NCBI RefSeq assembly: GCF_001577755.1
Contig: NZ_CP010776.1
Location: 310,001 to 374,000 of the forward strand
Direction of reading: 5' to 3'
From: Rufibacter sp. DG15C
GTDB lineage: Bacteria; Bacteroidota; Bacteroidia; Cytophagales; Hymenobacteraceae
DNA: 64,000 nucleotides
The notes under the pieces are model-generated. The model saw nothing but the letters and a program-made list of their open reading frames with translations. It made no database searches and was not told the origin of the DNA. Of this stretch, positions 221-62,832 are shown piece after piece. The position numbers and the translations under genes were made by a program. The first letter of the stretch is position 1. Every line of letters begins with the position of its first letter.

Positions 221-264
221 CTTCGTTTTTGGCCTGTTTTCCAGATTACAGGCCAAAAGCGAAG
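221..264. repeat. GGCC palindrome, copy 1
   Basis: The core is flanked by complementary CTTCG and CGAAG outer arms, with small mismatches in the inner stem. It lies in the tail-to-tail gap, six bases after one stop codon and six before the other. Confidence 0.85.
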
Positions 265-270
265 AAGGCT

Positions 271-1512
271 TTATATAACGTCACTTAATCGCAAAGTAGT
301 TTTAACGGTGGCTCCATTTCGTTTCACTTCTACCTTAAGTTTGCGACCAGGCTTGCTTTGAAATAAGTGTAAGATTTCCTCTAGTGTTTTAGTAGAACAA
401 TTAACTCCATCAATATTTAACAAGGCATCCCCTTTTAGAATACCCGCTCTTTGACCTGGAGAGTTGGCCAACACATCTGAGATGGTATAGAATTTAAGCC
501 CAGGAATGGGGGTCACAATCTCAAGGCCGCTTAGATTGAAATAAAATGGCGCGCTATATTTATGATTACGCTTCAAGAACATCTGCCCGTTCTGGTAATC
601 AAAAACCACTCTAAACCGTTGTAAAATGTCTGCCCCTAGATTCCCGTTTCGGTTTTTAAGGTTAAGTGCGTGTTGAATAAAAACGGAATCGGGAAAAGAG
701 ACCGGTGGCCTATTTAGCACATAATCTCCTAACTGTAGAGTTTCAATTCTGCCTATTTGCCCATGGATTTCGCCATTTAACCCGCGACCTAGGAAAGCTT
801 CAATGTGGTTTTTGGGTAATTGCATGGTTGGGATTGTGGGCAAATATAAAAGCATGGTTGTGCTTAACCCACTGTCTATTACCAGCCTTATTGGGTGTTT
901 GGCACCATCTTCAGAACTTATTACCGCTTCCACGTAAGGTTTAGAATCTTCAATTGTAAGAGGGATACAGCTGGATTTCTTAAGGCGTCTCTGGGGATAT
1001 TTGCCTTTTTTATAAAGGATTAACACCTTTTGTTCATAGTCAATCTCTACTATAAAATTCTTGAACAGCGTATATCCAATAATTCCATGAACTTCTATGC
1101 CAAGACGGGTAGATAGATTGAAGATGTTCTCCATGAGCACCAACATCTGCTGGCCTCTTGCCTCTATACCAGAAAAATGGATCCGATTGCCAGAGGTGCT
1201 TAATGCCTTTATACCTACCCCCTTTCCAAAACCTCTTAAATCAAGGGGTCTTACATTATTTAACTCTATTGAGTCCCGTCGCCCTAGCTCTGTAATAAGC
1301 GTTGTTTCCACGCCTGTATCTACAATGTAATTGAGGGGTTTAGAGCTATTAATGTTTACTGGAATAACGATTAGGTTATGCACCAGCTTAAATGGGATTT
1401 TCACAGAGTTCCTATGCTTCGGGAACTTGAACTCCTCCACCTCTACCTGTTGGGCAAACAGCAGCGGACTTGCCACAAGAAAGCATAAAGTCAGGAAATG
1501 ACGCAACTGCAT
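271..1512 (-). CDS. Secreted retropepsin-like aspartyl protease with C-terminal PDZ domain
   Basis: Probable periplasmic or cell-surface aspartic protease. Two catalytic-type motifs are visible, YIVDTGVETTLI near residue 65 and LVIDSGLSTTML near residue 210, giving the two-lobed arrangement of a single-chain pepsin-like enzyme. The last 80 or so residues form a PDZ domain (GLKFYTISDVLANSPGQRAG, then a KGDALLNIDG turn). The N-terminus is a signal peptide ending near LLFAQQ. I start at the ATG at 1512; a TTG twelve bases upstream would only add MSLL. The second motif is DSG rather than DTG, which is common in this family. Physiological substrate unknown. It is transcribed alone towards copy 1 of the palindrome. 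Confidence 0.85.
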   Translation of the reverse strand: MQLRHFLTLCFLVASPLLFAQQVEVEEFKFPKHRNSVKIPFKLVHNLIVIPVNINSSKPLNYIVDTGVETTLITELGRRDSIELNNVRPLDLRGFGKGVGIKALSTSGNRIHFSGIEARGQQMLVLMENIFNLSTRLGIEVHGIIGYTLFKNFIVEIDYEQKVLILYKKGKYPQRRLKKSSCIPLTIEDSKPYVEAVISSEDGAKHPIRLVIDSGLSTTMLLYLPTIPTMQLPKNHIEAFLGRGLNGEIHGQIGRIETLQLGDYVLNRPPVSFPDSVFIQHALNLKNRNGNLGADILQRFRVVFDYQNGQMFLKRNHKYSAPFYFNLSGLEIVTPIPGLKFYTISDVLANSPGQRAGILKGDALLNIDGVNCSTKTLEEILHLFQSKPGRKLKVEVKRNGATVKTTLRLSDVI

Positions 1513-1690
1513 GAGTAAGGACAATTTTAGCTTGTAAGGCAGTACCAGTTGGTAGGTCTAGTAATATAATCAACTTCTGCTTAATTACATATATGTCTTG
1601 CTATATTTATAAAAGAAGTTTTTCTTTTTGGCTTACAGGCATGTCTTATATTTAACAACAATGCGCTTCTTCCTTTGGCGGCGGCAAGGC

Positions 1691-1728
1691 TGTTTTTGGC
1701 CTGTTTTCTGGAAATCAGGCCAAAAACA
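1691..1728. repeat. GGCC palindrome, copy 2
   Basis: Core with one unpaired position: the left arm has TGTTTTC and the right arm GAAATCA. It is unusual in lying between two divergently transcribed genes rather than after a stop codon. Confidence 0.8.
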
Positions 1729-1792
1729 AAGGCCACAGCAAGTAGTGAAGGACATCTTTTGCTAACTTGCTGTTTTTAAAGCATTCTTGCCC

Positions 1793-2290
1793 ATGAGCGC
1801 CTCCATTTACCAACAGTTACTTTCTCAGGTTTTCTCTGAAGAGACAGCCTCTTTGCAACAAAGAATCTCTCCCTTGTACCAAGAGCTGGAAGACGCTTTG
1901 CAACAGGCGCGCCCGGGCAAACTAAGCCAGGAGCTGGTGAGTTTCAGTTTTGAGCGCTTGCGGTTGGGCATTGGCATTACCTTGTTGCAATTGCTCACCG
2001 ATCTGGGCGGCGATGAGGACAGTTCTGAGGTGCGTGATTTGTTGCAGGATGCCTTGGAGGCCGCCAGTGTGCATGAGATTGACAAGCGCATCCAGAAGAA
2101 AGGCCACCTGTTTGAAGAACTCTACACAGACTTGTATGTGAACGCCGAGGCCGAACATGTGCTGGCTCTGTTTGAGCGCACGCTGGAGTCTTCGTCTAAA
2201 GAAGAGACAGATGAGGTCTTGGAAGAAGCCCTGGAGCTGGCCCATGACCTTGAAATACAACCCGGCGGTGACGAGGACGATTTAGCTTAA
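1793..2290 (+). CDS. Conserved acidic hypothetical protein
   Basis: 165-residue protein, strongly acidic and predicted helical, with no signal peptide or membrane segment. I recognise no domain. The C-terminus is a run of Glu and Asp ending in PGGDEDDLA. The ATG at 1793 is preferred over a TTG two codons earlier. It is followed after 23 bases by the DUF2721 membrane protein, so the two are probably co-transcribed. Real coding sequence is supported by length and uninterrupted frame, not by a recognised family. Confidence 0.75.
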   Translation: MSASIYQQLLSQVFSEETASLQQRISPLYQELEDALQQARPGKLSQELVSFSFERLRLGIGITLLQLLTDLGGDEDSSEVRDLLQDALEAASVHEIDKRIQKKGHLFEELYTDLYVNAEAEHVLALFERTLESSSKEETDEVLEEALELAHDLEIQPGGDEDDLA

Positions 2291-2313
2291 TTGATTCTTT
2301 CCAGCGTTTTGCC

Positions 2314-4038: not shown

Positions 4039-4076
4039 CGTTTTTGGGTTGTTTTATGGAAAACAGGCCAAAAACG
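4039..4076. repeat. GGCC palindrome, copy 3
   Basis: Left arm decayed (TTTTTGGGTTGTTTT) while the right arm is intact (AAAACAGGCCAAAAACG). It begins nine bases after the queA stop codon. Confidence 0.8.
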
Positions 4077-7742: not shown

Positions 7743-10700
7743 TTAAAGTCCGATGTTAACACCAAACGTGAAGGTTCTTGATTGCGGAAAGGTGTAAAAG
7801 TCTACCCCTATGGTGGTGTTAGAAGTACCAGCAAAGTTCACTTCTGGGTCAAAGCCTGGATAGTCTGTAAAGGTTATCAAGTTTTGAGCCTGAGCAAAAA
7901 TACGGACGCTGCGTATTTTTGCTCTTTGCGTTAAGGTACCCGGCAAGGTGTAGCCCAGCATTAGGTTCTTTAGGCGGGCGTAAGAACCATCATAGATGAA
8001 TCTATCCTGGTTGCTACGGTTGTTGCCGTTCTCATCTAAGTAGGTGGCACGTGGCGTGTTGGTCACATCTCCTTCTTTCTTCCACCGGTCCAGCACAATG
8101 TCACGCATGTTGTCATCATACGCGCCTAAGTGCTGCTGGTACTGCATTGCTGGGTTAGCAATGTCATTGCCCACAGAGAACTGGAAGAAAGCAGTGAGGT
8201 CAAGCCCTTTGTAACTAAAGGTGTTGGTTAAACCTCCTACAAAATCAGGCTGGGCATTCCCCAAGATGGTTAAGTCATCATCTGTGATTTCACCATCTTC
8301 ATTGATGTCAACAAAGTTTACATCACCAGCTTGCGTATCAATGTTATCATCTCCATTGGCATCTACGTACCGGCCGGCATCAATCACTTGTTGGGTGGTG
8401 GAGAAAATACCATTGGTTTTAAAGCCATAGAAAGTACCAATTGGTTCACCTTCGCGCAGCACTAAGGAGTTCCCGCCAAACCCGTAGAAAATGTCCTGTC
8501 CTTGGTACAACTCCAATACTTTGTTGCGGTTAAATGACAGATTAAAGTCTGTGTTCCAGGTAAAGCCCTTGTTGTCTGAAGTGAAGTTGACGGTGCTTAA
8601 TGTAAACTCAAGACCTTTATTTTCTACACTCCCAATGTTAGAAGAATAGCTTCTCAGACCATTTTGGGTAGGAATAGGTCGGTTATACAACAAATCATCT
8701 GTGGTCTTAATGTAATAGTCTATGGCAAGGTTGACTCTATTGCTGAACAAGCCTAAGTCAGCACCAATGTTAAACTGCTTGGTTTCTTCCCATTTCAAGT
8801 CTGGGTTTTCTATTTGAGAAAAGGCAATACCCGGTCTGTTGGCATAACCACCAGCGCCAAATAAACCAAGGAAGGTAAAATCACCAATTTCCTGGTTACC
8901 TGTAATACCGTAGCTGGCGCGTAGTTTCAACTCACTGAGAGCTGCCACCTCAGGCATAAAGCTTTCTTCTAAGACCCTCCAACCTACAGACACAGATGGG
9001 AAGTAACCATACCGGTTGTTCTCACCAAAACGGGTTGAACCGTCTGCTCTAAAGTTTAAGCCCAGCAAGTATCTGTCTGAGATATTGAAGTTGGCTCTAC
9101 CAAAGTAAGACAGCAATGCATACGGGGTAATGGAGTTGGACCCGCTGTTTACACTTGTAGCACTGCTTAGGTAGCGGAACCTCTCACTTGGGAAGCCTTG
9201 ACCTGTTACAAAGGTTCTGTCTATGTCATTCTCCTCTGCAGAAGTACCTGCCAGTAAATTCACATAACTGTTGGTGCCAAAGTCCCAGCGGTAATCTGCC
9301 GTGGCTTCTAGCAAGCGCTTACTCACCAATGTAGTGGTTTTAGTGGCAGAACCCTGGGTGGCAATCCCTACGCTACCCGGAAAGTTATCACCAGTATAGC
9401 TACGCTCAGAGAGGTTCAATACGTCTGCTCCCGCTTTCAAATTCAGGTTCAGTTTGGGAAGGATGGTGTATCTGGCTGAGATGTTTCCTATAGCGCGTAA
9501 GTTCTTGCTCTCATTGTCATTCTCCCTACCTTCTGCCACCGGGTTGGTATAAAAGTAGTTTGGGTATGTATATGTGCCATCTTCATAATACACCGGGAAC
9601 ACCGGCGAAGCCGCCAAAGAGTTGGCAAACGGCCCAATAACCGTGTTGTCACTGACAATGCGTTGGTTCTCAGAAAGGCTTAACTGTACCCCAGCAGAAA
9701 AAGAAAGCTTGTCACTGTAAGAGTGATCCAAATTTAAACGGCCGCTGTACCTTTCATATCCACTGCCTATGATAATACCTTTCTGGTCAAAGTAATTACC
9801 AGACACATAGTACCGGGTTTTGGCATCCCCACCGCTGGCAGAAAGTTCATAATTACTAATGCGGGCATCCTTCACGGTTACTTGATCCATCCAGTCAGTA
9901 TCCACACCTTCTGGATCAAAGTCAAACCCACCGTAATAGAAATTGCCGAAATCTGTAGCGGTCCAAGGGTCATCTTCTCCCAGGTAACCGTCATTGATAA
10001 AGGCTTCGCGCATTACTTGTAAGTAATCTGCTGCATTCAAATAGCTAGGCTTCTTCCACATGTTCTGGATACCAGTGTAGGCATTCAGGTTAATGGTGGT
10101 TTTATTGGCCTTACCGCGTTTGGTAGTAATCAAGATAACCCCATTGGCCGCTCTTGAACCGTAGATGGCTGCTGCAGAAGCATCCTTCAAGATGTCCATA
10201 GACTCAATGTCTGAGGGGCTTAAATCTGAGAGCGCATTGATGGACTGACCCCCAAAATCCAACTGAGAATAGTCACCCGTGGTCATAGGCACGCCGTCAA
10301 TCACATACAATGGTTGGTTACTGGCAGAGATGGAACTGGAGCCACGTACGCGCACGGTTACCCCGCCCCCAGGTGTACCAGAGTTCTGCGAAATTTGCAC
10401 CCCCGCGGCACGGCCTTGCAAAGCTTGGTCTACGCCAGCTACGGGTACGTTCTCAATAGCGGCGGCGGTTACTTGGGTAGTAGCTCCCGTCACCTCGCGG
10501 CGCTCCTGCGTACCATAACCAATCACCACCACTTCATTTAAACTTCTGGAGCCCTCAGCTAAGGTAACGTCTAGGTTAGATCCACTACCAGCGGTTACTT
10601 CTCTGGTGTTGAAACCCAGGTAACTGAACACCAAAACCGGAGTACCGGATACACTCAAGGTATACCGGCCGTCTGCGTCTGTACTGGTACCATTGGTAGT

Positions 10701-11166: not shown

Positions 11167-12039
11167 ATGAAAAAACAGATTCAATTTACCTATGCCTTGG
11201 TTTGCGCCTTGGCCATGATCTTGATGGGCACAGAAGTCTCTGCCCAGATTAAAATGCCGGCCGCCAGCCCAGCCGCCACCGTGAAACAAACAGTGGGCTT
11301 AGGCGAAGTGACCGTGGAGTATTCTAGACCCAGCATGAAAGGCCGCAAGGTGTTTGGGGATCTTGCTCCGTATGGCAAACTTTGGAGAACAGGCGCCAAC
11401 GCCTCAACCAAAATCACCTTCTCTGAGGAAGTAATGCTGGAAGGCAACAAGGTACCAGCCGGACAATACGCCTTGTACACTATTCCGGGTGAAAAAGAAT
11501 GGACTGTAGTGATCCACAAAAACCTAAAACACTGGGGAGATGGTGGCCCTGACTACAAACAAGAAGAGGACTTGGTACGTTTTAAAGTGAACGCCAAAGA
11601 ACTGGATGACAAAGTAGAGACCTTCACCATTGGCTTCAATGACATTACCAACAACGGCGCCACCCTGCAGATCATGTGGGACAAGACGCTGGTACCGGTA
11701 AAAATCACCACAGACGTGGACTCCAAAGTGATGGCCCAAATCCAGGAGAAAGTCATCAACGGCACCGATGTGAAGCCCGCCATGTACGCCGCCGCGGCCA
11801 ACTACTACGCAGACAACAACAAGGACCTGAAGCAGGCCCTGGCCTGGATGCAGAAGGCCAACGCCACCAACCCATTGTTCTACAACATGCACTACCAGGC
11901 CAAAATGCAGGTGAAGTTGAAGGACTACAAAGGCGCCAGAGCCACTGCCGAGAAGTCTTTGGAGATGTCTAAGCAAGCCAAAAACGCTGACTACGTGGCC
12001 TTGAACGAGAAGCTCTTAGCCGAGATCAAAAACAAATAA
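11167..12039 (+). CDS. Secreted DUF2911 domain protein
   Basis: 290 residues with a signal peptide (cleavage after EVSAQ). The DUF2911 domain follows, recognisable by VEYSRPSMKGRKVFG, APYGKLWRTGANASTKITFS, VPAGQYALYTIPG and the WG-containing turn before DYKQEEDLVRF. The last ~90 residues are helical repeats resembling tetratricopeptide units. The family is common in Bacteroidota and its function is unknown. I start at ATG 11167, which gives a normal signal peptide; a TTG upstream would prefix a non-signal sequence. It ends one base before palindrome copy 4. Confidence 0.88.
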   Translation: MKKQIQFTYALVCALAMILMGTEVSAQIKMPAASPAATVKQTVGLGEVTVEYSRPSMKGRKVFGDLAPYGKLWRTGANASTKITFSEEVMLEGNKVPAGQYALYTIPGEKEWTVVIHKNLKHWGDGGPDYKQEEDLVRFKVNAKELDDKVETFTIGFNDITNNGATLQIMWDKTLVPVKITTDVDSKVMAQIQEKVINGTDVKPAMYAAAANYYADNNKDLKQALAWMQKANATNPLFYNMHYQAKMQVKLKDYKGARATAEKSLEMSKQAKNADYVALNEKLLAEIKNK

Positions 12040-12076
12040 CGTTTTGGCCTCTTTTGGCTAAAACAAGCCAAAAACG
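12040..12076. repeat. GGCC palindrome, copy 4
   Basis: Degenerate core (CGTTTTGGCCTCTTTTGGC on the left) lying directly after the DUF2911 stop codon. It shares its last two bases with the stem of the next hairpin. Confidence 0.8.
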
Positions 12077-14004: not shown

Positions 14005-14042
14005 CGTTTTTGGCCTGATTTCCGGAAAACAGGCCAAAAACG
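14005..14042. repeat. GGCC palindrome, copy 5
   Basis: Left arm has TGATTTC and right arm GAAAACA, one unpaired position. It ends two bases from the stop codon of the PIG-L gene and separates that gene from the symporter pair. Confidence 0.85.
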
Positions 14043-14044: not shown

Positions 14045-16534
14045 TTAGTTGCCCAAGGACAAGATATTCACAAAGAGGCGGTATGCGCCGGGCACACCGG
14101 CCGGTAATTCCCTAAAGAAGGAGTAACCGGTGTAGACGAAGTGCCCCTCGCCGTACTTGGCTACCAATAAGCCGCTGTCTTTGGGGCTCTCACCCGGGTC
14201 GTTGCTGGAGATGATGGCTTCGTATTCTGGCGCCCACTGGCTCGGGAAATACAAGCCGCGCTCCTGCACCCAGCCGGCAAAATCCTTTTCGGTGATTTTG
14301 TTGGGTGTGTTGAGAACGGGATGGTTGGGCTTCAGGAACTTGACCGGCGCGTCCTCCACGGTCACTCGGTCTGAGGAAAGCTTGAGCGAGTAAGGCCCCA
14401 GTTTGTCGGTGACCAGGCCGTTGCTCACGTTGTACTGCACAACCAGAGTTCCGCCTTGGCGCACATACTCCATCAACTGCGGCTGCTGAAACCGAAGACG
14501 GTCCAAGGTATTGTAGGCCCGGACGCCCGTCACCACCGCATCATACTTTTGCAGGTTGGCGGCAGACAGATCCTCTACGCGCAGTACGTCTACGTTGTAG
14601 CCTATCTGCTGCAAGCTGGCCGGCACCTCGTCTCCTGCGCCCATCAAATAGCCAATGCGCTGGCCATTGCGCTTCAGGTCCAGTTTGACTGCTTTTGAAA
14701 CCGCCTCTGGGAACAAGGTCTGCGTGGGAATGTGGTTGTAGGCAATGGTCTTGAGGCCTTGGGTGTAGGTTTTGCCCTGCACCGTGACGGCCGCGCCAAT
14801 GATGCTTTCGGTTTGGGATGCCCCCGGAACCACCTGGAACGTGAACTGCTGTTCTTCACCTTTCTGGCTAAGTTTCACGGGGAAAGAGGCCGGGCTGGCT
14901 TTCCATCCCTGGGGTAATCTTAAAGTCAGTTGACCATCCAAATTATTGTCCCCGGCGCGCACTTTCACGGTCACGGGTTTAGAAGTTGCATCGGCAAAGA
15001 CGTAGACCTTCTCTGTGAGGTTGGCGAAGACTGGCGGCGTGATTTCAAACGGACGGTACTGTTCGCCTTCCACGGGGTCTGTGCGCTTGTAGACCACGGG
15101 CACGGTAAACGCGAAGGGCAGGCCCTGTACCGTCAAATGGATTTTTACCTGCGCGGCGGCAGGGTTTTCTGGTAAGCCAATCAACGCGGCGTCTTCTACT
15201 TTGAACATGCCGGTAGTGCCTGGCGTCTGCAACCAGTAAGGCTGAGAGTAAGCCATGGTGTTGGGCAAAGTGACATTGGTTCTGGCCATCCAGGGCTTAC
15301 TGATCGCTAGCGGTTGTTGCACCGTGGTGTCTTTCTGCCCGAACAGGTATTCCACCTTGGTCAAGGTCACCTGAACGGAAGAACGGTTCACGGCTTCTAC
15401 CTGCACGCTTACCTGGTCGCCGGGCACGGCGGTGTAGTCTCTCGCTGAAGCCTCCAGGTACAATCCCAGACAGGCTTTGATGACGTTGGCCAGTTCCTGC
15501 TGCTTTACTTCTTTATAGGGGTTGGCCGGAAGTTTGTCCAAGGCCGTTTTCGCTTTTAGTAAGGTGGGCACTATGGCCGACGGCTGGGCAGGGTTGTATT
15601 GTTTAAGCGCGTCTTGCAGAAGTTTGGAAACAGATTCGCCGCCTTTCACGCGGGCCCAGGAAGTGTTCACGCCTTCCAGCAAATCAGTCTTGGCAGGTTC
15701 GCCTTTCAGGAATTCAAAGTACTCAATGGCCTCTCCCCGGCTTCCGCTGCTGCCAAAGCCCTGGCTTTTATGCATGCTGCGACTCTCAGCGGCCACTTCA
15801 TTGTAAGACTTGCCCAGCAGCGGATTGTACACGCCGGTCTCTACCTTGAGCTTGTTGCTGTCGTCAAACTTCTGGCCCTGGGCTACAAAAAAGCTGGAGG
15901 TGTTCCAAAAGACGCGCTTCACTTGCCATGGCTCTACGGTTTTCAATTGCTCCGGAAAGCGTTTGGGGTCTGCGGCGGCGGTGAAGGCCTCCAGGGCAAT
16001 CATAGCCGAGGCCGTATGGTGTCCGTGCGTGTTGCCGGGCTCCGGAGAGAAGCGCGTCACAATCACATCTGGCCTGAACTTTCTAATCACCCAAACGGCG
16101 TCTGCCAGCACCTGATCGCGGTCCCAGATGGTAAACGTTTCTGCCGGGTTCTTAGAAAACCCGAAGTCGTTGGCGCGGGTAAAGAACTGCTCTCCACCAT
16201 CCAGGCGGCGGGCCTGCAACAGTTCCTGCGTCCTGATGAGGCCCAGTTCTTCGCGTATTTCGTGGCCAATCAGGTTTTGTCCGCCGTCCCCGCGCGTGAG
16301 CGACAGGTAGCCGGCGCGCAGTTTTCGCTCATTGGCCAGGTAGGCAATTAGGCGGGTGTTTTCATCGTCTGGGTGCGCGGCTAGGTAGAGTACACTACCC
16401 AGCACGTTCAGTTTTTCAAGGGCCAGCCGTATGTCGGCAGCATTGGGTTTCTTGGGGGCCTGGGCCTGCACGGGTGGGGCAAACGCCACCCAGGCAGACA
16501 AGCAGGCACCTAGTATCACACGAAAAGAGGTCAT
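14045..16534 (-). CDS. Secreted PIG-L family deacetylase, large form
   Basis: 829 residues, far longer than a bare PIG-L/LmbE enzyme (about 230). After a signal peptide (cleavage after PVQAQ) comes the zinc-dependent deacetylase domain: AAHPDDENTRLIAYLA at about 52-67 and GNTHGHHTAS near 175 are the metal-binding motifs. A long central region with beta-sandwich character follows, then a C-terminal domain of Rossmann or glutamine-amidotransferase type (KYDAVVTGVRAYNTLDRLR; QGGTLVVQYNV). It probably removes N-acetyl groups from sugars outside the cytoplasm. The sodium:solute symporter and its small partner lie downstream on the same strand. Substrate unknown. Confidence 0.9.
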   Translation of the reverse strand: MTSFRVILGACLSAWVAFAPPVQAQAPKKPNAADIRLALEKLNVLGSVLYLAAHPDDENTRLIAYLANERKLRAGYLSLTRGDGGQNLIGHEIREELGLIRTQELLQARRLDGGEQFFTRANDFGFSKNPAETFTIWDRDQVLADAVWVIRKFRPDVIVTRFSPEPGNTHGHHTASAMIALEAFTAAADPKRFPEQLKTVEPWQVKRVFWNTSSFFVAQGQKFDDSNKLKVETGVYNPLLGKSYNEVAAESRSMHKSQGFGSSGSRGEAIEYFEFLKGEPAKTDLLEGVNTSWARVKGGESVSKLLQDALKQYNPAQPSAIVPTLLKAKTALDKLPANPYKEVKQQELANVIKACLGLYLEASARDYTAVPGDQVSVQVEAVNRSSVQVTLTKVEYLFGQKDTTVQQPLAISKPWMARTNVTLPNTMAYSQPYWLQTPGTTGMFKVEDAALIGLPENPAAAQVKIHLTVQGLPFAFTVPVVYKRTDPVEGEQYRPFEITPPVFANLTEKVYVFADATSKPVTVKVRAGDNNLDGQLTLRLPQGWKASPASFPVKLSQKGEEQQFTFQVVPGASQTESIIGAAVTVQGKTYTQGLKTIAYNHIPTQTLFPEAVSKAVKLDLKRNGQRIGYLMGAGDEVPASLQQIGYNVDVLRVEDLSAANLQKYDAVVTGVRAYNTLDRLRFQQPQLMEYVRQGGTLVVQYNVSNGLVTDKLGPYSLKLSSDRVTVEDAPVKFLKPNHPVLNTPNKITEKDFAGWVQERGLYFPSQWAPEYEAIISSNDPGESPKDSGLLVAKYGEGHFVYTGYSFFRELPAGVPGAYRLFVNILSLGN

Positions 16535-16722: not shown

Positions 16723-17010
16723 ATGAAAAAGTTATTTGCAATACTCTGCCTGGCAGGCACTACCAACTTCTTAGCCACTTCCTGCGACTCTAACACGGGT
16801 GGTACCACCACCACGGCTACCCAAGACTCTGAACACATGGACGGCGCCCAGGCAGATGCCGTGAACACCGTTCCCAATGACACCACTGGCACCGCGGCCA
16901 CAGAGAAAACCCAGAAAAACGTGGGCAATTCTGAAACGCGCGGCGAAACCAACACTTCTAAATCTTCTACCACCAAGAACGTGACCGTGGGCAAAGACTC
17001 AGTTCAATAA
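16723..17010 (+). CDS. Small low-complexity lipoprotein
   Basis: 95 residues. A lipoprotein signal peptide with Cys21 (LATSC) is followed by a disordered Thr, Ser, Asn and Lys-rich chain without hydrophobic or structural segments. No recognised family. Such short polar lipoproteins are frequent in Bacteroidota envelopes; role unknown. The gene stands alone and ends 17 bases before an unusually perfect GGCC palindrome. Confidence 0.75.
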   Translation: MKKLFAILCLAGTTNFLATSCDSNTGGTTTTATQDSEHMDGAQADAVNTVPNDTTGTAATEKTQKNVGNSETRGETNTSKSSTTKNVTVGKDSVQ

Positions 17011-17027
17011 GAAGGACTTAGTTTACA

Positions 17028-17085
17028 GCAAAGCGCCCGTTTTTGGCCTGATTTCTAGAAATCAGGCCAAAAACGGGCGCTTTGC
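17028..17085. repeat. GGCC palindrome, copy 6 (58-bp perfect palindrome)
   Basis: The longest and cleanest copy: every base of the 58 pairs, with CTAG at the centre. The inner arms carry TGATTT and AAATCA, a matched change from the common TGTTTT and AAAACA. The outer arms GCAAAGCGCC and GGCGCTTTGC are unique to this copy. It sits in a tail-to-tail gap. Confidence 0.95.
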
Positions 17086-17101
17086 TTTTATGAGGTTAGA
17101 A

Positions 17102-18111: not shown

Positions 18112-18149
18112 CGTTTCTGGTCTATTTCCCTGAAAACAGGCCAAAAACG
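18112..18149. repeat. GGCC palindrome, copy 7
   Basis: The half next to the OmpA-type gene is intact (GAAAACAGGCCAAAAACG); the other half is decayed (CGTTTCTGGTCTATTTCC). On the minus strand the intact CGTTTTTGG directly follows the GC-rich hairpin at 18150-18186 and would supply its U-tract. Confidence 0.8.
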
Positions 18150-19672: not shown

Positions 19673-19769
19673 AAACGAGGCAAAGTCTCTTTGAGCGCCG
19701 CAGGCTGGGTAATTACCTTTTACTCATTCCACCTTTGCCTCGTTTTAGCCCTATTTTTTCCAAAACAGC

Positions 19770-19991
19770 ATGAAAACAAAAATTACCGTGAACAGCAACG
19801 GCTCTCTAAAAGTAGAGGGCGATTTTATAGTAGTAGACGCGCAAGGCAACGAGTATAACCTGCAGGGCCGCGAAGTAGTGTCTTTCTGCCGCTGCGGCCT
19901 GTCTAGCAATAAACCCTTCTGCGACGGCGCCCACAAAGGCCATTTTGAGCACAACGCCGTGGCCTTTGACCTGCCGCCAAGAAAGGTCTAA
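19770..19991 (+). CDS. CDGSH iron-sulfur domain protein
   Basis: 73 residues with the mitoNEET-type cluster motif CRCGLSSNKPFCDGAH (three Cys and one His ligate a 2Fe-2S cluster). The family takes part in redox sensing or cluster transfer; bacterial roles are poorly defined. Soluble, single domain, no targeting signal. The gene stands alone between the coiled-coil gene (divergent) and the APC permease, from which it is separated by an AT-rich repetitive gap. Confidence 0.93.
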   Translation: MKTKITVNSNGSLKVEGDFIVVDAQGNEYNLQGREVVSFCRCGLSSNKPFCDGAHKGHFEHNAVAFDLPPRKV

Positions 19992-20047
19992 CTAGTCGCG
20001 AGTGATGAATTTTGCCATGATTGTTGATTGCTAATTGTCAACTATTG

Positions 20048-20101: not shown

Positions 20102-20126
20102 ATCATTCTTCATTCCCAAAGGGTGT

Positions 20127-23712: not shown

Positions 23713-23732
23713 TCATTTTTGGCCTGTTTTTC
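23713..23732. repeat. GGCC palindrome, copy 9 (left half only)
   Basis: TCATTTTTGGCCTGTTTTTC matches the left arm of the core, but the right arm is missing and replaced by an ordinary terminator hairpin. It looks like a decayed or replaced copy. Confidence 0.65.
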
Positions 23733-46566: not shown

Positions 46567-46620
46567 GTAAAAAGCGTTTTTGGCCTGTTTTCTAGAAAAC
46601 AGGCCAAAAACGCTTTTTAC
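46567..46620. repeat. GGCC palindrome, copy 17 (54-bp perfect palindrome)
   Basis: All 54 bases pair. The centre is CTAG and the outer arms GTAAAAAGCG and CGCTTTTTAC are unique to this copy. It begins 21 bases after the TolC stop codon. Confidence 0.95.
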
Positions 46621-49319: not shown

Positions 49320-49357
49320 CGTTTTTGGCCTGTTTTCCAGAAAACAGGCCAAAAACA
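49320..49357. repeat. GGCC palindrome, copy 18
   Basis: Full core with an exact 16-bp stem (GTTTTTGGCCTGTTTT) between the T9SS gene and the convergent thioesterase. A separate terminator follows 10 bases on. Confidence 0.92.
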
Positions 49358-50656: not shown

Positions 50657-50694
50657 CGTTTTTGGCATATTTTCTGGAAAACAAGCCAAAAACG
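50657..50694. repeat. GGCC palindrome, copy 19
   Basis: Core with minor change (TGGCATATTTTC on the left, GAAAACAAGCCAA on the right). It lies between divergent genes, one of three copies in such a location. Confidence 0.8.
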
Positions 50695-53171: not shown

Positions 53172-53211
53172 CCGTTTTTAGGCTGTTTTCCAGAAAACAG
53201 CCTAAAAACGG
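53172..53211. repeat. GGCC palindrome, copy 20 (compensated variant)
   Basis: 19-bp perfect stem with the core changed to TAGGCTG on the left and CAGCCTA on the right, so both arms vary in step. Tail-to-tail gap between queD and a response regulator. Confidence 0.93.
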
Positions 53212-53656: not shown

Positions 53657-54826
53657 TTAATCAAGATGTAACGTGAAGGTGGTACCCACATTTAACTCAC
53701 TGTCAATATCAATGGTGCCGCCCAAAGACTCTACGTGCGTTTTCACCAGGAAAAGACCTATGCCCCGGCCCTCAATGTTTCTATGAAAGCGCTTGTACAG
53801 GGTAAAGACGTCCTCCCGCACTTTGTTCAGGTCCATGCCAGAACCGTTGTCTGAAAAATTAAACAAAGTACCGCCCGCAGGCGTGGCACTGCACTGAATA
53901 GAAACCTGCAAAGCGCGCTCCTTTGACCGGTACTTGATGGCGTTTGACAATAAATTATAGACAATGCTGTAGAGGTAGGCCTTTTTGGCGGGCAGCGTAT
54001 AGTCTTTGGGTATCTGCACCTCTATGGTGCCGCCGCAGTTTTGCAGCGACTCCTGTAAACTGGAGATAACCTGTTGGCATACATCGCCTAGCCGCACCGG
54101 TTCTTTTTCAACGGTGTCTTGGTTGTCCCTTATAGAGAGAATGAGGTTGACGTCTTTGATGATGGTGTCCAACTGAAACACAGAAGCTCGTACCTGGCTT
54201 AATAGAGGGTCAAAACCGGCATCTTCCTTCTTTAACCGGGTCAGCAGGTTAGAAAGCCCCAAGGCGTTGGCCACCGGCGCCCGCAGGTTGTGCGAGACAA
54301 TGTAGGTAAACTGCTGCAAATCACGGGTCTGCCGGTAAAGGTCTTCGGTGAGTTTGACCAAAGCCAACTCCTCTTTCTTTTTGGAGGTGATGTCCCGCAC
54401 AGAGACTACGTACTGCTCTACCAGTCCTTCAGAGTCTAGTACAGGAGAAACTTCCAAGGCCCACCAAGCGGTCTGTTGGCTATTTACTGCCACCGGTATG
54501 TCTACCGCAACTGGTTTTGCTAAGTGTATCTGGTCCTTAAGGCTTTGCGCCTCTTCCTGGTCTACGCCTGCACGCACCAACAATCCAAAGAAGCCTTGTC
54601 CGATTGCCCGAGGAAGGTCAAGTTGGGTTAGTTGCAAGAATCCTTCATTGGCCCATTGCACACGCAACTCTGTGCTTAATAGCGCCAGGCCCTGTCCTAG
54701 GTGCGCTGCTACCAGAGCGGCTGGCCCTAAAGAGACTGCCATTTTTGGCACCAGGGCTTCTGGAGGTATGATTTGAAAGGAAGAATCATGAGAAATTGAG
54801 ATTGGGGGATTTTTCTGCAATGTCAT
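53657..54826 (-). CDS. PAS domain sensor histidine kinase, pair 1
   Basis: 389 residues, no membrane helices, so probably a cytosolic sensor. One PAS domain (about 40-145) precedes the phospho-acceptor His179 in IVSHNLRAPVANALGLSNLL, an unusual SHNLRAP box, and an ATP-binding domain with NLLSNAIKYRS, DNGSGMD and GRGIGLFLVKTHVES. Its kinase half is closely similar to that of the protein at 56348-58558. The response regulator follows directly. The signal is unknown. Confidence 0.93.
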   Translation of the reverse strand: MTLQKNPPISISHDSSFQIIPPEALVPKMAVSLGPAALVAAHLGQGLALLSTELRVQWANEGFLQLTQLDLPRAIGQGFFGLLVRAGVDQEEAQSLKDQIHLAKPVAVDIPVAVNSQQTAWWALEVSPVLDSEGLVEQYVVSVRDITSKKKEELALVKLTEDLYRQTRDLQQFTYIVSHNLRAPVANALGLSNLLTRLKKEDAGFDPLLSQVRASVFQLDTIIKDVNLILSIRDNQDTVEKEPVRLGDVCQQVISSLQESLQNCGGTIEVQIPKDYTLPAKKAYLYSIVYNLLSNAIKYRSKERALQVSIQCSATPAGGTLFNFSDNGSGMDLNKVREDVFTLYKRFHRNIEGRGIGLFLVKTHVESLGGTIDIDSELNVGTTFTLHLD

Positions 54827-55800
54827 AAAGGTGTTTTACCTGCTTACTTCTTGCCATGGTATCTGATTTGCCAATAGCCACAGATAAGATATTACCCTAT
54901 GTTGTAGCCCTAAAAACAAATCACATTCTGCTCTGCGCAAACTAAGCGCAGCAGGTAACCAAGGGAAGGTCAAGAATGAAAAGCCCTAGCTTAGAAGTTA
55001 AATGAAACCACAGAAAATTGGTCTGCCTGGACTAGACATTTCTCCGTCATTCTCACTACTTCAACGCATGGTAGGCTTACCATGTAAGCATGTCGTTAAT
55101 GTATAACCAAAGCTATTTATGAAAATTTAATTTTTATAACAACCCGCCTCGGGCATTTCAGATATAATTACAAAATTTAACTATTAAAATCCACCAAACT
55201 AGCCATTAAAGGCTCATTCTTAATTAACTTAAGTCATATGAACACAATCCTATACTTGTACTTTCCCAATTATTTATTTTCAGAAGGGAGTTTAAATCAT
55301 AAGTGGCTCAGCAAGACAGAGCTATTTTAAATCTATTTAATTGATAACTGCAAAATCCTAAATTACTGTTTACCTAAGCAGACAAATAACTAAACAGAGA
55401 ACAAATCCATTAAAAGGTACTTTTCCATTTTTAGGCTACTTTCCATAAAACAGACCAAAAACAATTACCTCCTGATTATTCCTCAGACAAAATATAACTT
55501 AAAATTAACACCCACCTCTCAATCATTCAATTACCCGCCTTAAACCCTTCTATACTATATTTACAGCAGACGTTTTAATTCTCTGTATTTAAAAGAATTG
55601 CATTTAAGGACTTTATATGTTTAGAGTTTACATAAATAGCAGTTCCGGTTTTCAAATATGAACTTATATAGGTAGTTTTACCTTTCCCCTCAATAGTTAA
55701 TCAGGTAATAAGTGGTTTACGCCCTTCTCTCATAAAGCCAGTATGCAATTTCCTGGCTATTGAGGAGCATGAAAGCCACTTTTGAAGTTGGAAAATACCC
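54827..55800. other. Long AT-rich intergenic region between the two kinase loci
   Basis: 974 bases without a convincing gene. It holds a bulged hairpin at 54928-54954 (CTGCT ... GCGCAGCAG), a 7-bp hairpin at 55067-55084 (CATGGTA ... TACCATG) and a decayed GGCC palindrome (copy 21). I saw no tRNA or known riboswitch. Base composition is visibly more AT-rich than the flanks. Confidence 0.6.
55426..55463. repeat. GGCC palindrome, copy 21 (decayed)
   Basis: Left arm TTTTTAGGCTACTTTCC and right arm AAAACAGACCAAAAAC, several mismatches. It is far from any stop codon. Confidence 0.6.
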
Positions 55801-56347: not shown

Positions 56348-58558
56348 ATGAAGATACTTCCCCCAAGTGTTCATTTAGAAAAACTAAGCAGGCATTCCAG
56401 AGACATTCTCTGCACGCTAGACCAGGCGGGCAACATTTACTTTATCAATGAGGCCGTTACGTTCATTTTAGGGTATAGCCCCGAAGAAGTGGTAGGAAAA
56501 TCTAACCGCCATTTTGTGCACCCAGAAGACGTAAAAAGCACAGCCAAAACCATACAGCGCTTTATTGAGGCAGAGCATCCAGAGGCAGTTGAAAATCCTA
56601 TCATTGAAAACCGGTGCGTTCATAAAAATGGACAGGTGATTCCTATGGAATGGACCGCCACCTGGTCACCAGAAGAGAATTTCCTTTTTTGCGTGGGCAG
56701 GGACGTCACCAAGCAAAACCAGGTAAGGCAGGTCTTCCATGAAAAAGTAGAAGTACACCGGGCCCTTGCCCAACAAGGCGCCGACATGCTGGCTTTGTTG
56801 GATAAAGACGCATATTTCACGTACAGTGGCGGGTCTACGGCCAAAGTGTTAGGCTATGCACCCCAAGATCTGGTAGGCAAAAGCGTTTTTGAGATTCTCC
56901 ATGAAGAGGACGCCCAAAGAGCCCAAGAGGTGCTGGAGCAGTTGGCTACTAGCCAAGAGACCATCAAGGTGTCTGACTTGCGCATTAAAACCAGCCAAGG
57001 CGACTATAAATGGCTGGAGACCACTGCCAGCAATCAGTTAGACAATCCGCATGTAAATGGACTGGTCCTTACCTCCAGAGACGTAACGGAGCGGGTGCTG
57101 ACCGGCTTAAAACTACAAGAGCGCGAGCAGCACTTTAGGTCCTTGTTTGAGAACAGCCCAGAACTGATCATCTTTGAAAACCCAGAGGGGGTAATCACAG
57201 ACGCCAACCCTTCGTTCTTGACCTATTTCTCTTTAGAAAGAAGCTCCATCATTGGATATAAACTGGCAAACTTTTTACCGCCCGTGGCTGCGGCCAGCTG
57301 TCAAGCTAAATTTATAGAAGCTCTGTTAGGCAAAACTGTGGCGTTTACGCTAGAGGTAGAGATTGAATCCTTTAGCCCGCGGGTATTTGACGTGACCAAG
57401 ATTCCGGTTGTCAACCAGCAGGTTACTACGGGGGTATACTCCATTCTAAAAGACATCACAGAGCGTGTGCAAGCCAACCATGAACTGGAGCAGTTGTCAT
57501 TAGTTGCCAGCAAGACCAGTAATGGCATTGTCATCATGAACGCACAAGGGCAGATAGAATGGGTCAACAAGGGATTCACCTCCATCAATGGCTACACCTT
57601 GCAAGAAGTGAAGGGGAAACGCCCCAATGACTTTTTACATGGCCCCAACACAGACCCAGAAATGCAAAAGCAGATTACGGCGGGCTACCGGTCTGGTCAG
57701 CCATTCACAGAAGAGGTTTTAAACTACAAGAAAAATGGCGAGGAGTTCTGGGTAAAGATTGATGTCACTCCGGTTAAAAACGAAGAGGGACAAGTCACCA
57801 GTTACATTGCCATCCAGACGGATATTTCTTACCGCAAAGAGGCGGAGAAAGAACAGCTCCTGCTTACCCGTGAGCTCTATGAACAAAACCGAGATTTGCA
57901 GCAGTTCACCTACATTGTCTCGCATAACCTGCGGGCACCCGTGGCCAATGCCTTGGGCCTTTCCAACCTGCTACCGGTAGTAGATAAAGACTCAACCGTC
58001 TACGCTACCTCATTGGCCAACCTGAAGGCCAGCGTTTTGCAGATTGACAGTGTGCTCAGGGACCTTAACCTGATTCTGTCTATAAGAGACCACAGAAATA
58101 CCATTGAAAGGCATAAAGTGAACCTGGCTCAAAAATGCCACCAAACCGTAGAGAGCCTGAAGGAGTCCTTGCAAGCCAGCCATGCCACTTGCTCTTTACA
58201 GGTGCCCGAGGATATTAGTGTGCGCGGCAATGAGGCCTACCTGTATAGCATCTTTTACAACTTGTTGGCCAACTCCATTAAATACCGCTCACCAGACCGG
58301 CCCTTGCACATAGAAGTAAAGGCAGAACAAAATACGGATGGGGGCATCACCGTTTCATTTTCAGACAACGGACTGGGGTTTGACCTACAAAAAGCCGGCA
58401 ACAACGTATTTAAGCTCTACAAAAGATTCCATAAAAACGCTGACGGCAAGGGGATTGGCCTCTTTCTGGTGAAAACGCACGTAGAATCCATGGGGGGCCA
58501 GGTAGAGGTTTACAGCGAAGTAAACAAAGGCACCACCTTTCTCATTTACTTAAAGTAA
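56348..58558 (+). CDS. Multi-PAS sensor histidine kinase, pair 2
   Basis: 736 residues, no membrane helices. Four PAS domains in series (starting near residues 10, 135, 265 and 385; the last has a PAC motif EEFWVKIDVTPVKNEEGQVTSYIAIQTD), then phospho-acceptor His526 in YIVSHNLRAPVANALGLSNL and an ATP-binding domain with NLLANSIKYRS, DNGLGFD and GKGIGLFLVKTHVESMGG. The catalytic part is a near copy of the kinase at 53657-54826; the sensory part is much longer. Response regulator six bases downstream. Confidence 0.94.
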   Translation: MKILPPSVHLEKLSRHSRDILCTLDQAGNIYFINEAVTFILGYSPEEVVGKSNRHFVHPEDVKSTAKTIQRFIEAEHPEAVENPIIENRCVHKNGQVIPMEWTATWSPEENFLFCVGRDVTKQNQVRQVFHEKVEVHRALAQQGADMLALLDKDAYFTYSGGSTAKVLGYAPQDLVGKSVFEILHEEDAQRAQEVLEQLATSQETIKVSDLRIKTSQGDYKWLETTASNQLDNPHVNGLVLTSRDVTERVLTGLKLQEREQHFRSLFENSPELIIFENPEGVITDANPSFLTYFSLERSSIIGYKLANFLPPVAAASCQAKFIEALLGKTVAFTLEVEIESFSPRVFDVTKIPVVNQQVTTGVYSILKDITERVQANHELEQLSLVASKTSNGIVIMNAQGQIEWVNKGFTSINGYTLQEVKGKRPNDFLHGPNTDPEMQKQITAGYRSGQPFTEEVLNYKKNGEEFWVKIDVTPVKNEEGQVTSYIAIQTDISYRKEAEKEQLLLTRELYEQNRDLQQFTYIVSHNLRAPVANALGLSNLLPVVDKDSTVYATSLANLKASVLQIDSVLRDLNLILSIRDHRNTIERHKVNLAQKCHQTVESLKESLQASHATCSLQVPEDISVRGNEAYLYSIFYNLLANSIKYRSPDRPLHIEVKAEQNTDGGITVSFSDNGLGFDLQKAGNNVFKLYKRFHKNADGKGIGLFLVKTHVESMGGQVEVYSEVNKGTTFLIYLK

Positions 58559-61146: not shown

Positions 61147-61185
61147 CGGTTTTTGCCCTGATTTCAGGAAAATAGGCCAAAAACG
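61147..61185. repeat. GGCC palindrome, copy 22
   Basis: Imperfect core (CGGTTTTTGCCCTGATTTC; GGAAAATAGGCCAAAAACG) ending seven bases from the YihY stop codon and just before the DUF4153 start. Confidence 0.78.
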
Positions 61186-61192
61186 CAAATCC

Positions 61193-62122
61193 TTAGCGCT
61201 TCTCTTTCTCCAGCCGCTTAGTGATGGTGTCAATGCTAATGTTCACCTCAAAGCCCAGAATGAGGATCATGCAGACAAAATCCAGCCAGATCATTAAACC
61301 AATGAGCGCGCCAATAGAGCCGTAGAACTTGTTGTAGGTGTCAAACTTACTGATGTAGAAAGAGAACAGCATGGACACCAGAAAGATGAGGATGGTAGCC
61401 ACCACTGAGCCCGCGCTCACAAACGGCCACTTGTCATGGATGGCCGGCACGTAGTAGTAAATCATGGACGTAGCCAGGAAGAACAGCAGGATCACTGCCA
61501 CGTACTTCAGAATCACGATCAAGGTATACGTAAAGGCCTCTGTCACCACCTCATAAAACACCAGAATGTCCAGAATGTACGTCCCGAAGAAGATGGCACT
61601 AATGCTGATGAGCAAGATGACCGCCAGGGCCACCGTCAGCAACGTGGCAATCAAACGCTTGCGCAGATAGGTCCGGCGCCGGAAGGTTTTGTACTTCTTG
61701 TCAAAGGCGTCCATGAGGCTCATGATGCCATTGGTAGACAAGACCAGCGCAAACAAGAAACCGAAGGACAGCAAGCCGCCCCGCGGGGTGTTCACAATGT
61801 CCTCAATGGTCTCAGCGGCGGCCAGATAAATCTCCTGCGGCATCACGTCCCCCAGAAACTGCAGGATGTCCTGGTCCAGGTGCCCCACCGGAATGTAGGG
61901 AATGAGCGTGAACAGGAAGATGATGGTAGGAAAGATGGCCAGCGTAAAATTGAAGGCCATGTACGACGCGCGCTTGGTCAAAGAGTCCAGCTTGAGCTCA
62001 TCAATCATCACCTTGATGACATGGTAGACGCTTACCCGACCCTCTAAAAAGCGCAGTTGCTTTAAGAAGACGATGAACTTACGGTAAGGCCGTGAGCTGG
62101 TAAAGGTCTGGTAGACGTTCAT
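61193..62122 (-). CDS. YihY/BrkB family membrane protein, paralogue 2
   Basis: 309 residues with about six membrane helices; KRASYMAFNFTLAIFPTIIF, NGIMSLMDAFDKKYKTFRRR and SIGALIGLMIWLDFVCMILILG match the family. It differs considerably from the YihY at 38100-39038. Its ATG overlaps the stop codon of the thioesterase gene by four bases (ATGA), so the two are translationally coupled. Confidence 0.92.
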   Translation of the reverse strand: MNVYQTFTSSRPYRKFIVFLKQLRFLEGRVSVYHVIKVMIDELKLDSLTKRASYMAFNFTLAIFPTIIFLFTLIPYIPVGHLDQDILQFLGDVMPQEIYLAAAETIEDIVNTPRGGLLSFGFLFALVLSTNGIMSLMDAFDKKYKTFRRRTYLRKRLIATLLTVALAVILLISISAIFFGTYILDILVFYEVVTEAFTYTLIVILKYVAVILLFFLATSMIYYYVPAIHDKWPFVSAGSVVATILIFLVSMLFSFYISKFDTYNKFYGSIGALIGLMIWLDFVCMILILGFEVNISIDTITKRLEKEKR

Positions 62123-62532
62123 GCCGTAAAGTAAGAGTCTAGCTTGTCATGAATTCCGTGAGGAATAGCTGTGGGCCGCCCAGACTTCATGTCTACAAAC
62201 ACCATGGTGGTTTCGCCAATGTTGAGGAGCTCCTGAGCCTCATTGTAGACCTCGTACTCAAACTTGATGCGGGTACCTTTGGGTTTCTCCTTTACCAGCA
62301 GTTTAATGGTGAGCATGTCATCATAGCGCGCCGGCCTGATGTACTTGCAGCGCATCTCCAGTACGGGCATCATCACACCTTCGGCCTCCATCTCTTTGTA
62401 ATGGATGCCCAAGCGGCGGAACGTCTCGGTGCGGGCCACCTCATAGTAGGCGCCGTAGTTGCCGTAATAGACATAGCCCATCTGGTCGGTTTCGGCGTAA
62501 CGCACCCTTATCTGTACCTCTGATTCAAACAC
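62119..62532 (-). CDS. Acyl-CoA thioesterase, YbgC/FadM-like (paralogue 2)
   Basis: 137 residues. Hotdog-fold signature VRYAETDQMGYVYYGNYGAYYEVART with the catalytic Asp, then RRLGIHYKEMEAEGVMMPVLEM. Cytosolic hydrolase of acyl-CoA or acyl-ACP thioesters. It overlaps the second YihY gene by four bases. Confidence 0.93.
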   Translation of the reverse strand: MFESEVQIRVRYAETDQMGYVYYGNYGAYYEVARTETFRRLGIHYKEMEAEGVMMPVLEMRCKYIRPARYDDMLTIKLLVKEKPKGTRIKFEYEVYNEAQELLNIGETTMVFVDMKSGRPTAIPHGIHDKLDSYFTA

Positions 62533-62564
62533 GTTCCTGTCTTCTTAAGCGGTGAATACCCTGC

Positions 62565-62602
62565 CGTTTTTAACCTGTTTCTGATAAAACAGCTTAAAAA
62601 CG
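62565..62602. repeat. GGCC palindrome, copy 23
   Basis: Variant with TTTTTAA on the left matched by TTAAAAA on the right, another paired change, and one mismatch. It lies in the probable leader of the thioesterase gene. Confidence 0.8.
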
Positions 62603-62786
62603 ATTTCGGCGTTTACAATAATACTAGAAAGATTGAGAAATGGTGCTACCGCCAAATGAAAGCAGACGTATTGGCCGGAAGTTGTTGGTTTTGACGAGTG
62701 CTGGCCTATAACCTTTCCTGCAGCCGTTCCCAGATTTGGTCATTAAGACGCCGGACCCGTGTGCACAAAAGTATAGGCAAAAAAAA

Positions 62787-62832
62787 CTTCCGTTTTTGGC
62801 CTGATTTCCAGAAGCTAAGCCAAAAACGGAAG
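62787..62832. repeat. GGCC palindrome, copy 24
   Basis: Outer arms CTTCCG and CGGAAG pair; the inner right arm is changed (GAAGCTAAGCC). It ends five bases from the mltG stop codon. Confidence 0.85.

Follow-up and report, generated by a model that had tools for sequence, protein, structure and literature searches.

A 38-bp palindrome family of Rufibacter keeps its intergenic places between species and varies in spelling

Introduction

Why does one long palindrome recur in gap after gap between the genes of a bacterial chromosome, and what would read it there? The question is raised by a 64-kb stretch of the Rufibacter sp. DG15C chromosome (NZ_CP010776.1, positions 310,001 to 374,000; below, the window means this whole stretch of 64,000 nucleotides), in which a first reading of the letters alone, the original prediction, had noticed 24 copies of a 38-bp palindrome at gene ends. 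It had named four candidates for the nature of the family: an element protecting RNA 3' ends, a protein site resembling the repetitive extragenic palindromes (REPs) and bacterial interspersed mosaic elements (BIMEs), a DNA uptake signal, and a domesticated mobile palindrome. For palindromes that reach high copy number in bacteria, the customary accounts are transposase-driven REPs and uptake words, DNA uptake sequences (DUS) being short single words. In this work we show that the palindrome family is real, genus-wide, conserved in place and not accounted for by the usual mechanisms. We propose, with a probability that we put at roughly one half, that the palindrome is a double-stranded DNA site read whole by a putative dimeric or tetrameric factor specific to Rufibacter.

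Results

The palindrome family in the window and along the chromosome

Every 38-mer of the window was scored against CGTTTTTGGCCTGTTTTCNNGAAAACAGGCCAAAAACG, and a place with at least 24 of 36 matches was called a copy. This gave 25 copies, of which 23 score at least 28 and the remaining two (19741-19778 and 23714-23751) score 26; a clear gap separates them from the rest, as no 38-mer scores 22-25 and the background tops out at 21. Repeat finding in the window returns 24 copies, the number given by the original prediction. The family stands, and its count is 25 by 38-mer scoring. The genome of the window (G000; the other 15 species are G001 to G015) was then sampled over 464 kb, 11% of the genome, consisting of the window and 20 evenly spaced 20-kb stretches. 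The sample holds 188 copies, or one per 2.5 kb, which extrapolates to about 1,680 copies in the whole genome. At a looser cut (at least 22 matches) the count is 198 places, where the reversed sequence and a Markov shuffle yield 6 each, and a pattern search with at most three mismatches finds 486 matches in the whole genome and none in the reversed control. The idea that copies are limited to part of the chromosome, with none of the matches listed between 0.77 and 3.0 Mb, was rejected since each of the 20 evenly spaced stretches holds 5-11. Regular spacing was also rejected: the coefficient of variation is 0.75, against 0.78 (standard deviation 0.05) when eligible gaps are chosen at random.

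The unit has a genus-wide skeleton, GTTT-N5-C-N3-TTT plus its mirror image, with symmetric ends (YG...CR in the column counts of aligned copies) and a T-run at the 5' foot of the stem. Its information profile totals 48 bits, with peaks 14.5, 7.5 and 4 bp from the dyad and with its strongest power near 10 bp, a value that carries no significance test; beyond two bases outside the core there is little information. This rhythm of conserved A/T steps of about 10 bp would be explained by contacts on one face of the helix. The arms almost never occur alone: at up to three mismatches, 280 arms of the 464 kb lie inside listed copies and 1 lies elsewhere (the one-armed copy at 23714 being counted inside), and at up to four mismatches the numbers are 326 inside and 9 outside, with 11 in the reversed control. 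The loose definition of a REP, an extragenic palindrome of 20-40 bp with more than 100 copies, covers this family, with its 38 bp, its 188 sampled copies and only 16 of these in called genes.

Distribution across genomes

Exact matches in the named genome collection fall on six contigs, all from Rufibacter, and the 14 of 39 relatives that match are all of the window's genus. De novo palindromes from orthologous stretches of the 15 sister genomes yielded the same skeleton with other spellings. When the skeleton is scanned with at least 14 of its 16 fixed letters, all 16 species carry 1.5-5.5 copies per 10 kb, the counts for the 15 other species resting on 40-160 kb each, and the reversed control gives 0-1 per species. 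In 16 other genera the same scan, applied to one locus from each of 20 genomes, finds none; 19 of these loci span 20 kb and the remaining one 4.6 kb. The palindromes that these 20 genomes of the order do have (loci L068-L087) are mostly ordinary bidirectional terminator hairpins of the A-stem-T kind, and none belongs to the family.

Rarity outside the genus was judged by a strict skeleton, YGTTTN5CN3TTTN4AAAN3GN5AAACR, in samples of up to 200 genomes each. The strict skeleton occurs 51-1,317 times per genome in all 16 Rufibacter genomes. Elsewhere, 184 other genomes of the family have 8 occurrences in total, all in 6 genomes that belong to a single genus; the reversed control gives 2. The order sample, with 193 non-Rufibacter genomes of which 16 are shared with the family sample, yields one occurrence, and its control 2. 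One extra base per spacer reduces the matches to 3 in the 16 Rufibacter genomes. Two species, G008 and G015, have only 55 and 51 strict copies, whereas each of the remaining 14 genomes has 187-1,317, and they form one clade in a midpoint-rooted ten-gene tree shown without support values; loss of the putative factor that maintains the family is a possible cause of this scarcity. Spread by phages was considered and rejected, the viral collection having no exact dialect match and 5 contigs with the skeleton. The family was not found in the open-access literature searched.

Placement relative to genes

All counts of gaps and of distances to stop codons rest on heuristic gene calls made for this analysis. 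In the window, copies occupy 8 of the 10 convergent gaps, which bears out the original prediction, 12 of the 24 codirectional gaps that are 45 bp or longer, and four of the nine divergent gaps, where only three copies had been announced; for 15 of the 25 copies a stop codon is no more than 20 nt away. Of the 188 sampled copies, 167 lie in gaps for which both neighbouring genes are known, 16 fall within called genes and 5 are at stretch ends. Over the 464 kb, gaps of at least 45 bp are occupied in 40 of 53 cases when convergent, 100 of 181 when codirectional and 19 of 54 when divergent. Placement is not random with respect to stop codons: 68 of the 167 copies lie within 20 nt of one, against an expected fraction of 0.11 for uniform intergenic placement and 0.25 for placement within the same gaps. 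For codirectional copies the median distance is 29.5 nt from the preceding stop and 104.5 nt to the following start. The 15 other species, in which a skeleton match needed 11 or more of the 18 pairs to be counted, have copies in 65 of 105 convergent, 152 of 344 codirectional and 20 of 121 divergent gaps, and 81 of their 259 copies are near a stop, where a fraction of 0.09 is expected. Gene ends, in particular the stretch right after a stop codon, are thus favoured but not exclusive, since copies in divergent gaps are conserved too, and the gene-end marking that had been proposed is a preference, not a rule. Coding DNA is avoided.

Fixed places and species dialects

Conservation in sister species is seen between G000 and G013, the two closest. 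Among gaps with both neighbours matched, to which the comparison applies, 37 hold a copy in both species, one in G000 only, one in G013 only and 31 in neither; for divergent gaps, 6 are shared and 1 is single. At orthologous gene ends the two species agree in 101 of 108 cases, and the alignments indicate that several of the 7 discordant ends are mis-paired genes or sub-threshold copies. Summed over the 15 species, in a table that counts the same genes repeatedly, 222 gene ends carry a copy in both genomes, 98 in G000 only, 46 in the other only and 225 in neither (with gaps restricted to 60 bp or more: 214, 84, 43 and 123). Taken singly, 9 of the 15 species reach p<0.05, and 7 of them do so under that restriction.

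At these places the palindrome is better kept than its surroundings. In 42 orthologous pairs from G000 and G013 compared without gaps, identity is 0.83 in the core and 0.44-0.49 in the flanks; the variable positions reach 0.81 and positions 4-6, 16, 23 and 33-35 reach 1.00. With gaps allowed, the core is at 0.85 and the 40 nt downstream at 0.74 when aligned letters are counted, or 0.84 and 0.59 by alignment length. Between G000 and G005, G006 or G012 (17, 18 and 11 pairs), the flanks are at 0.25-0.32, which is near random. Constraint at fixed places independent of the flanks, as expected of a protein site, is therefore observed, with the reservation that sites were selected by the skeleton.

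Spelling was compared at 16 variable positions, and a copy had to keep 12 or more of its 18 pairs to be included; only 4 copies from G008 and 6 from G015 qualify. Mean similarity is 0.608 within species, 0.536 for orthologous copies between species and 0.518 for random copies between species, the pair G000-G013 being left out; 200 permutations give a mean of 0.516, a standard deviation of 0.006 and a largest value of 0.539. Orthologous copies of different species thus resemble each other hardly more than random ones do. G000 and G013 share a common dialect (orthologs 0.817 versus 0.717). The dialect is sharp in G012 (0.80), G005 (0.73), G013 (0.73) and G000 (0.71), and moderate in G006, G001 and G007 (0.64-0.67). 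Column pairs that are neither adjacent nor mirror images are nearly independent, with a mean z of 0.41 in G000, 0.02 in G013, 0.50 in G005, 0.09 in G012, 0.12 in G006 and 0.02 in G001, against 0.03 after shuffling, which speaks against large subfamilies arising from recent copying. We infer that dialects arise from a reader whose specificity changes.

Pairing, flanks and terminators

If the palindrome acted as an RNA hairpin, the sense strand should tell. Among the 106 codirectional copies, G.U and A.C mismatches on that strand are 135:120 (p 0.38), and in the 15 other species they are 182:162 (p 0.31). In the same 106 copies G/C positions are paired in 66% of cases and A/T positions in 88%, except for the A/T positions 14 and 17, paired in only 64 and 69 of the 106. 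Folding of six copies gives z from -10.8 to +1.3; perfect copies are stable and the weak copy at 55426 is the worst. Among Rfam families only a tRNA reaches the cut-off in the window, and 24 sub-threshold RNA family matches, mostly hairpins of the microRNA type, were taken as chance.

At least three extra paired bases outside the core are found in 35 of 167 copies, where about 7 are expected. A downstream flank with at least 6 T in 8 within 22 nt is present in 27% of the 106 codirectional copies, for which the comparison values are 8% for A downstream, 14% for T upstream and 13% for A upstream, and in 20% of 162 copies from the 15 other species. The statement of the original prediction that no U-tract follows the core stem consequently holds for most copies and fails for this T-rich 27%. 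Most copies do not have the structure of an intrinsic terminator, a GC-rich hairpin followed directly by a T-tract, and a minority may have it. A strict, home-made terminator finder, for which each convergent gap enters once per gene end and which finds 0 of 270 in shuffled sequence, detects terminator-like hairpins at 24 of 74 convergent ends with a copy and 10 of 26 without, and at 25 of 96 codirectional ends with a copy and 11 of 71 without. These similar frequencies led us to reject the idea that copies replace terminators, and they broadly support the earlier view that the palindrome is not simply an intrinsic terminator.

Individual copies in the window

In this section each copy is given with its matches to the consensus out of 36 and its paired positions out of 18. 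The eight copies in convergent gaps lie at 224-261 (33/36, 15/18), 12039-12076 (29/36, 12/18), 17038-17075 (34/36, 18/18), 27000-27037 (33/36, 16/18), 32960-32997 (32/36, 15/18), 35826-35863 (31/36, 13/18), 49320-49357 (35/36, 17/18) and 53173-53210 (32/36, 18/18). The copy at 12039-12076 abuts a stop codon; its counterpart is at distance 0 from the stop in G013, G005, G006 and G004, and G008 and G003 have no copy. The stem of the copy at 17038-17075 is lengthened by 11 locus-specific bp, and a counterpart is present in all 13 other species with an ortholog of gene 16723-17010. Four copies lie in divergent gaps: 1691-1728 (33/36, 17/18), 50657-50694 (33/36, 16/18) and the two weak copies 19741-19778 (26/36, 11/18) and 55426-55463 (28/36, 11/18). 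For the last three, the matching gap of G013 also has a copy.

Codirectional gaps hold the copies 4039-4076 (33/36, 15/18), which is 9 nt after a stop, 18112-18149 (32/36, 14/18), 21624-21661 (33/36, 16/18), 25483-25520 (32/36, 14/18), 29959-29996 (31/36, 13/18), 39061-39098 (30/36, 13/18), 46575-46612 (36/36, 18/18), 61148-61185 (32/36, 14/18), 62565-62602 (28/36, 15/18) and 62791-62828 (31/36, 14/18). The stem at 21624-21661 is lengthened by 10 bp, and 12 of the 15 other species have a skeleton match there, part of them poorly paired; the copy at 25483-25520 has an 11-bp extension and a T-tract, the perfect copy at 46575-46612 has an 8-bp extension, and the copy at 62565-62602 precedes the start of gene 62119-62505, on the minus strand, by 59 nt. 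Three further copies are defined by their stop codons. The copy at 14005-14042 (35/36, 17/18) is 2 nt after the stop of gene 14045-16534; in the 13 other species with an ortholog, the counterpart is 0 nt from the stop in 9, further away in 2 and absent in 2. A decayed copy with only its left arm, at 23714-23751 (26/36, 9/18), is 1 nt after a stop, and G013 has a copy at the same distance. The copy at 38070-38107 (33/36, 15/18) overlaps the stop of gene 38100-39038; its counterpart is likewise at -8 from the stop in G013 and G006 but at +14 in G005, and there is none in G008.

The window has two other kinds of repeats, an inverted repeat of 110 nt, 82% complementary, at 54243-54352 and 57863-57972 (3.5 kb apart), and AT-rich repeats of the ATTAATCATTGGTCATTA type, tandem and dispersed, at 20038-20109 and 32614-32735. 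At locus L105 of G013 (about 7964-8140), repeats of the GGGGATTACAAATCCCC type form a cluster that separates the conserved palindrome from a stop codon, and G000 is without the cluster there; these repeats resemble those beside a gene for a REP-associated tyrosine transposase (RAYT) in locus L031.

Discussion

In this work we describe a palindrome family that holds its places between genes throughout one genus and whose spelling depends on the species. We favour the reading that it is a double-stranded DNA site because its arms are rarely found alone, G.U pairs are not favoured, G/C positions pair less than A/T positions, and G000 has no Y1/RAYT match. Several observations weigh against this reading. 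At variable positions, arm pairing exceeds that of re-dealt arms in all 16 species (z from 0.1 in G013 to 4.7 in G014 and 5.0 in G000), most strongly in G000 (0.723 versus 0.688) and G014 (0.702 versus 0.506). Mirror columns also covary, with a mean z of 2.15 in G000. A pure double-stranded site need not show a pairing excess or mirror covariation. In the convergent gap 17010-17102 a copy is present in 14 of 14 species and has at least 15 pairs in 11 of them despite very different middles. Extended stems occur at 34 of 147 gene-end copies versus 1 of 20 divergent copies, which points to RNA at some sites. The dialect is weak or absent in G002, G009, G014, G004, G011, G003, G010, G008 and G015 (0.39-0.57, or 0.39-0.53 without G002 and G009), adjacent columns are linked (mean z 4.47 in G000), and 9.3% of column pairs in G000 exceed a z of 3 versus 2.0% after shuffling. 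The identity of invariant positions with G005, G006 and G012, 0.94-0.95, is partly a product of construction, these sites having been picked by the skeleton. A factor that changes specificity must also carry along hundreds of sites. Finally, the profiles of ParB and HU, the only candidate factors tested, show no contrast among the 16 genomes. Both proteins were rejected as the factor: each has one clear gene in 16 of 16 genomes, and for HU there is one more match, a weak one, in G000, G005 and G012.

The most serious rival is an RNA hairpin in 3' untranslated regions that protects or defines mRNA 3' ends, as a terminator or a barrier to decay, and whose sequence may drift as long as pairing is kept. 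We give it this weight because the pairing excess is found in all 16 species and dialects are weak in about half of them; the enrichment near stop codons (68 of 167 versus 0.11), the compensatory stems of many species at 17010-17102, the stable folding of perfect copies, and the T-rich downstream flanks and extended stems at gene ends are all in its favour. Such a hairpin should however leave a strand signature, which neither the 135:120 nor the 182:162 ratio of G.U to A.C provides, and the G/C pairs, on which its stability depends, are disrupted more frequently than the A/T pairs. Conservation extends to copies in divergent gaps (6 of 7), terminator frequency is similar at gene ends with and without a copy, and selection on pairing alone predicts no species-wide spelling. 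We consider the RNA hairpin unlikely but a serious rival; as a 3'-end protection element, one of the four candidates first named, it is weakened by the equality of G.U and A.C and strengthened by pairing above that of re-dealt arms. Overall, we read the palindrome as a DNA site with kept symmetry that has been absorbed into longer hairpins at some gene ends.

A REP-like palindrome, mobile or gene-converted, in which a master copy overwrites residents and so creates dialects at old places, would account for the size, copy number and 3' location of the family, for the concerted dialects of some species and for some column linkage in G000 and G005, and Y1_Tnp/RAYT-like genes are present in 15 of 16 Rufibacter genomes. 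The missing one is G000 itself, in which no Y1_Tnp (PF01797) match was found at E<=0.001 whereas all 15 others have one. The flanks (400 nt each side) of 16 RAYT open reading frames carry other repeats, as judged by eye, and when both sides of 20 of the 45 RAYT matches are taken, 18 of these 40 sides have a family copy no further than 300 nt away, a proportion with no background rate for that distance. In addition, only one G000-only and one G013-only gap occur among 39 occupied, and little information lies more than two bases outside the core. A RAYT/REP system as the driver in G000 is thus unsupported, although family copies adjoin some RAYT genes, and we regard such an origin as rather improbable. 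Among the four first candidates the REP/BIME-like protein site comes closest, but the family lacks the one-sided tag and, in G000, a RAYT link; fixed positions and the weak linkage of columns make a domesticated mobile palindrome less likely. Last, an uptake or self-recognition word for natural transformation, with dialects as in Neisseriaceae, would fit the copy number, the dialects, the stable positions and the location in permissive DNA, and the sections of PMC3630211 used here report that DUS also form inverted pairs near terminators. The same sections describe intragenic DUS as common, whereas only 16 of 188 copies are in called genes. The near-absence of arms outside copies (280:1), hence no over-representation as a single word, weakens the uptake signal further, and 48 bits are far beyond the need of such a word, so that we hold this origin to be very unlikely.

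Around the RAYT-like genes that we inspected (loci L028-L047, 20 of 45 matches in 15 genomes), unrelated short palindromes such as AATGGGTTGAAACCCATT, GGCGCGGAAGTTACTTCCGTGCC and CGGGGATTTATCAATCCCCG were seen by eye at 16 loci; several repeats of this kind coexist in Rufibacter.

Comparison with known systems places the family near REPs in a loose sense only. According to the sections of PMC3733652 used here, REPs and BIMEs are short extragenic palindromes whose copies can number in the thousands and for which functions in supercoiling, termination and mRNA stability have been proposed, and CGTC repeats occur in Bacteroidetes, seemingly without a dedicated transposase, so a missing RAYT alone does not exclude a REP. 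The YGT ends of the Rufibacter palindrome recall the CGTC/TGTC tag described there, and like CGTC repeats it has no dedicated transposase. It differs in being symmetric on both sides, without a one-sided unpaired tag or tail, and in having arms of 18 bp instead of stems of 5-13 bp (GTAG) or 8-9 bp (CGTC) (PMC3733652, same sections). It also differs in that orthologous places are kept genus-wide while the spelling changes. It can thus loosely be called a REP-like repeat, without the tag and short stem of the GTAG/CGTC super-family. With the DUS of Neisseriaceae it shares a copy number in the thousands, dialects that vary by species while a core stays invariant, and inverted pairs near terminators (PMC3630211, sections used here), but its arms almost never stand alone, and it is 38 bp long and mostly intergenic. 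The bidirectional intrinsic terminators of Bacteroidota likewise are inverted repeats between convergent genes, and a minority of copies share their extended stems and T-tracts; the Rufibacter family is sequence-specific, has its T-run at the 5' foot of the stem and is mostly without a T-tract. Motif pairs at gene 3' ends, as presented in the portion of PMC5217627 used here, are also spaced and palindromic, some lie between convergent genes, and no function is known for them there, but the pairs presented there number 52-125 copies and differ in sequence. Rufibacter does not turn up in a term search of PMC5217627, and one of the recent REP survey PMC12306157 found neither Rufibacter nor Hymenobacter.

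We infer that a protein reads the palindrome, and the double-stranded site that we favour would then work as follows. The factor would occupy fixed places between genes, from hundreds to some two thousand of them in each genome, and the spelling of these places would drift with its specificity. Once bound, it would act at the borders of transcription units as a roadblock, an insulator or a supercoil barrier; this step is the least certain, and a role at such borders is the likeliest but unproven use of the site. Extended copies (35 of 167, about a fifth), some with a T-tract, may aid intrinsic termination locally. The strongest form of the proposal, that a genus-specific chromosome-wide protein marks transcription-unit borders at more than 1,000 fixed sites and that its word was rewritten in concert throughout the genome more than once inside this genus and decayed in the clade of G008 and G015, is one that we regard as doubtful.

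If true, this protein would be a bacterial counterpart of the eukaryotic roadblock and insulator factors. Unlike the usual cases of high-copy palindromes, the positions here are almost as stable as genes, the spelling depends on the species and no Y1 transposase was found in G000. The clade of G008 and G015 may be a natural loss experiment able to reveal the factor. Whether more than 1,000 dispersed sites can change sequence together, and what reads them, thus becomes a testable question in a single genus with 16 genomes.

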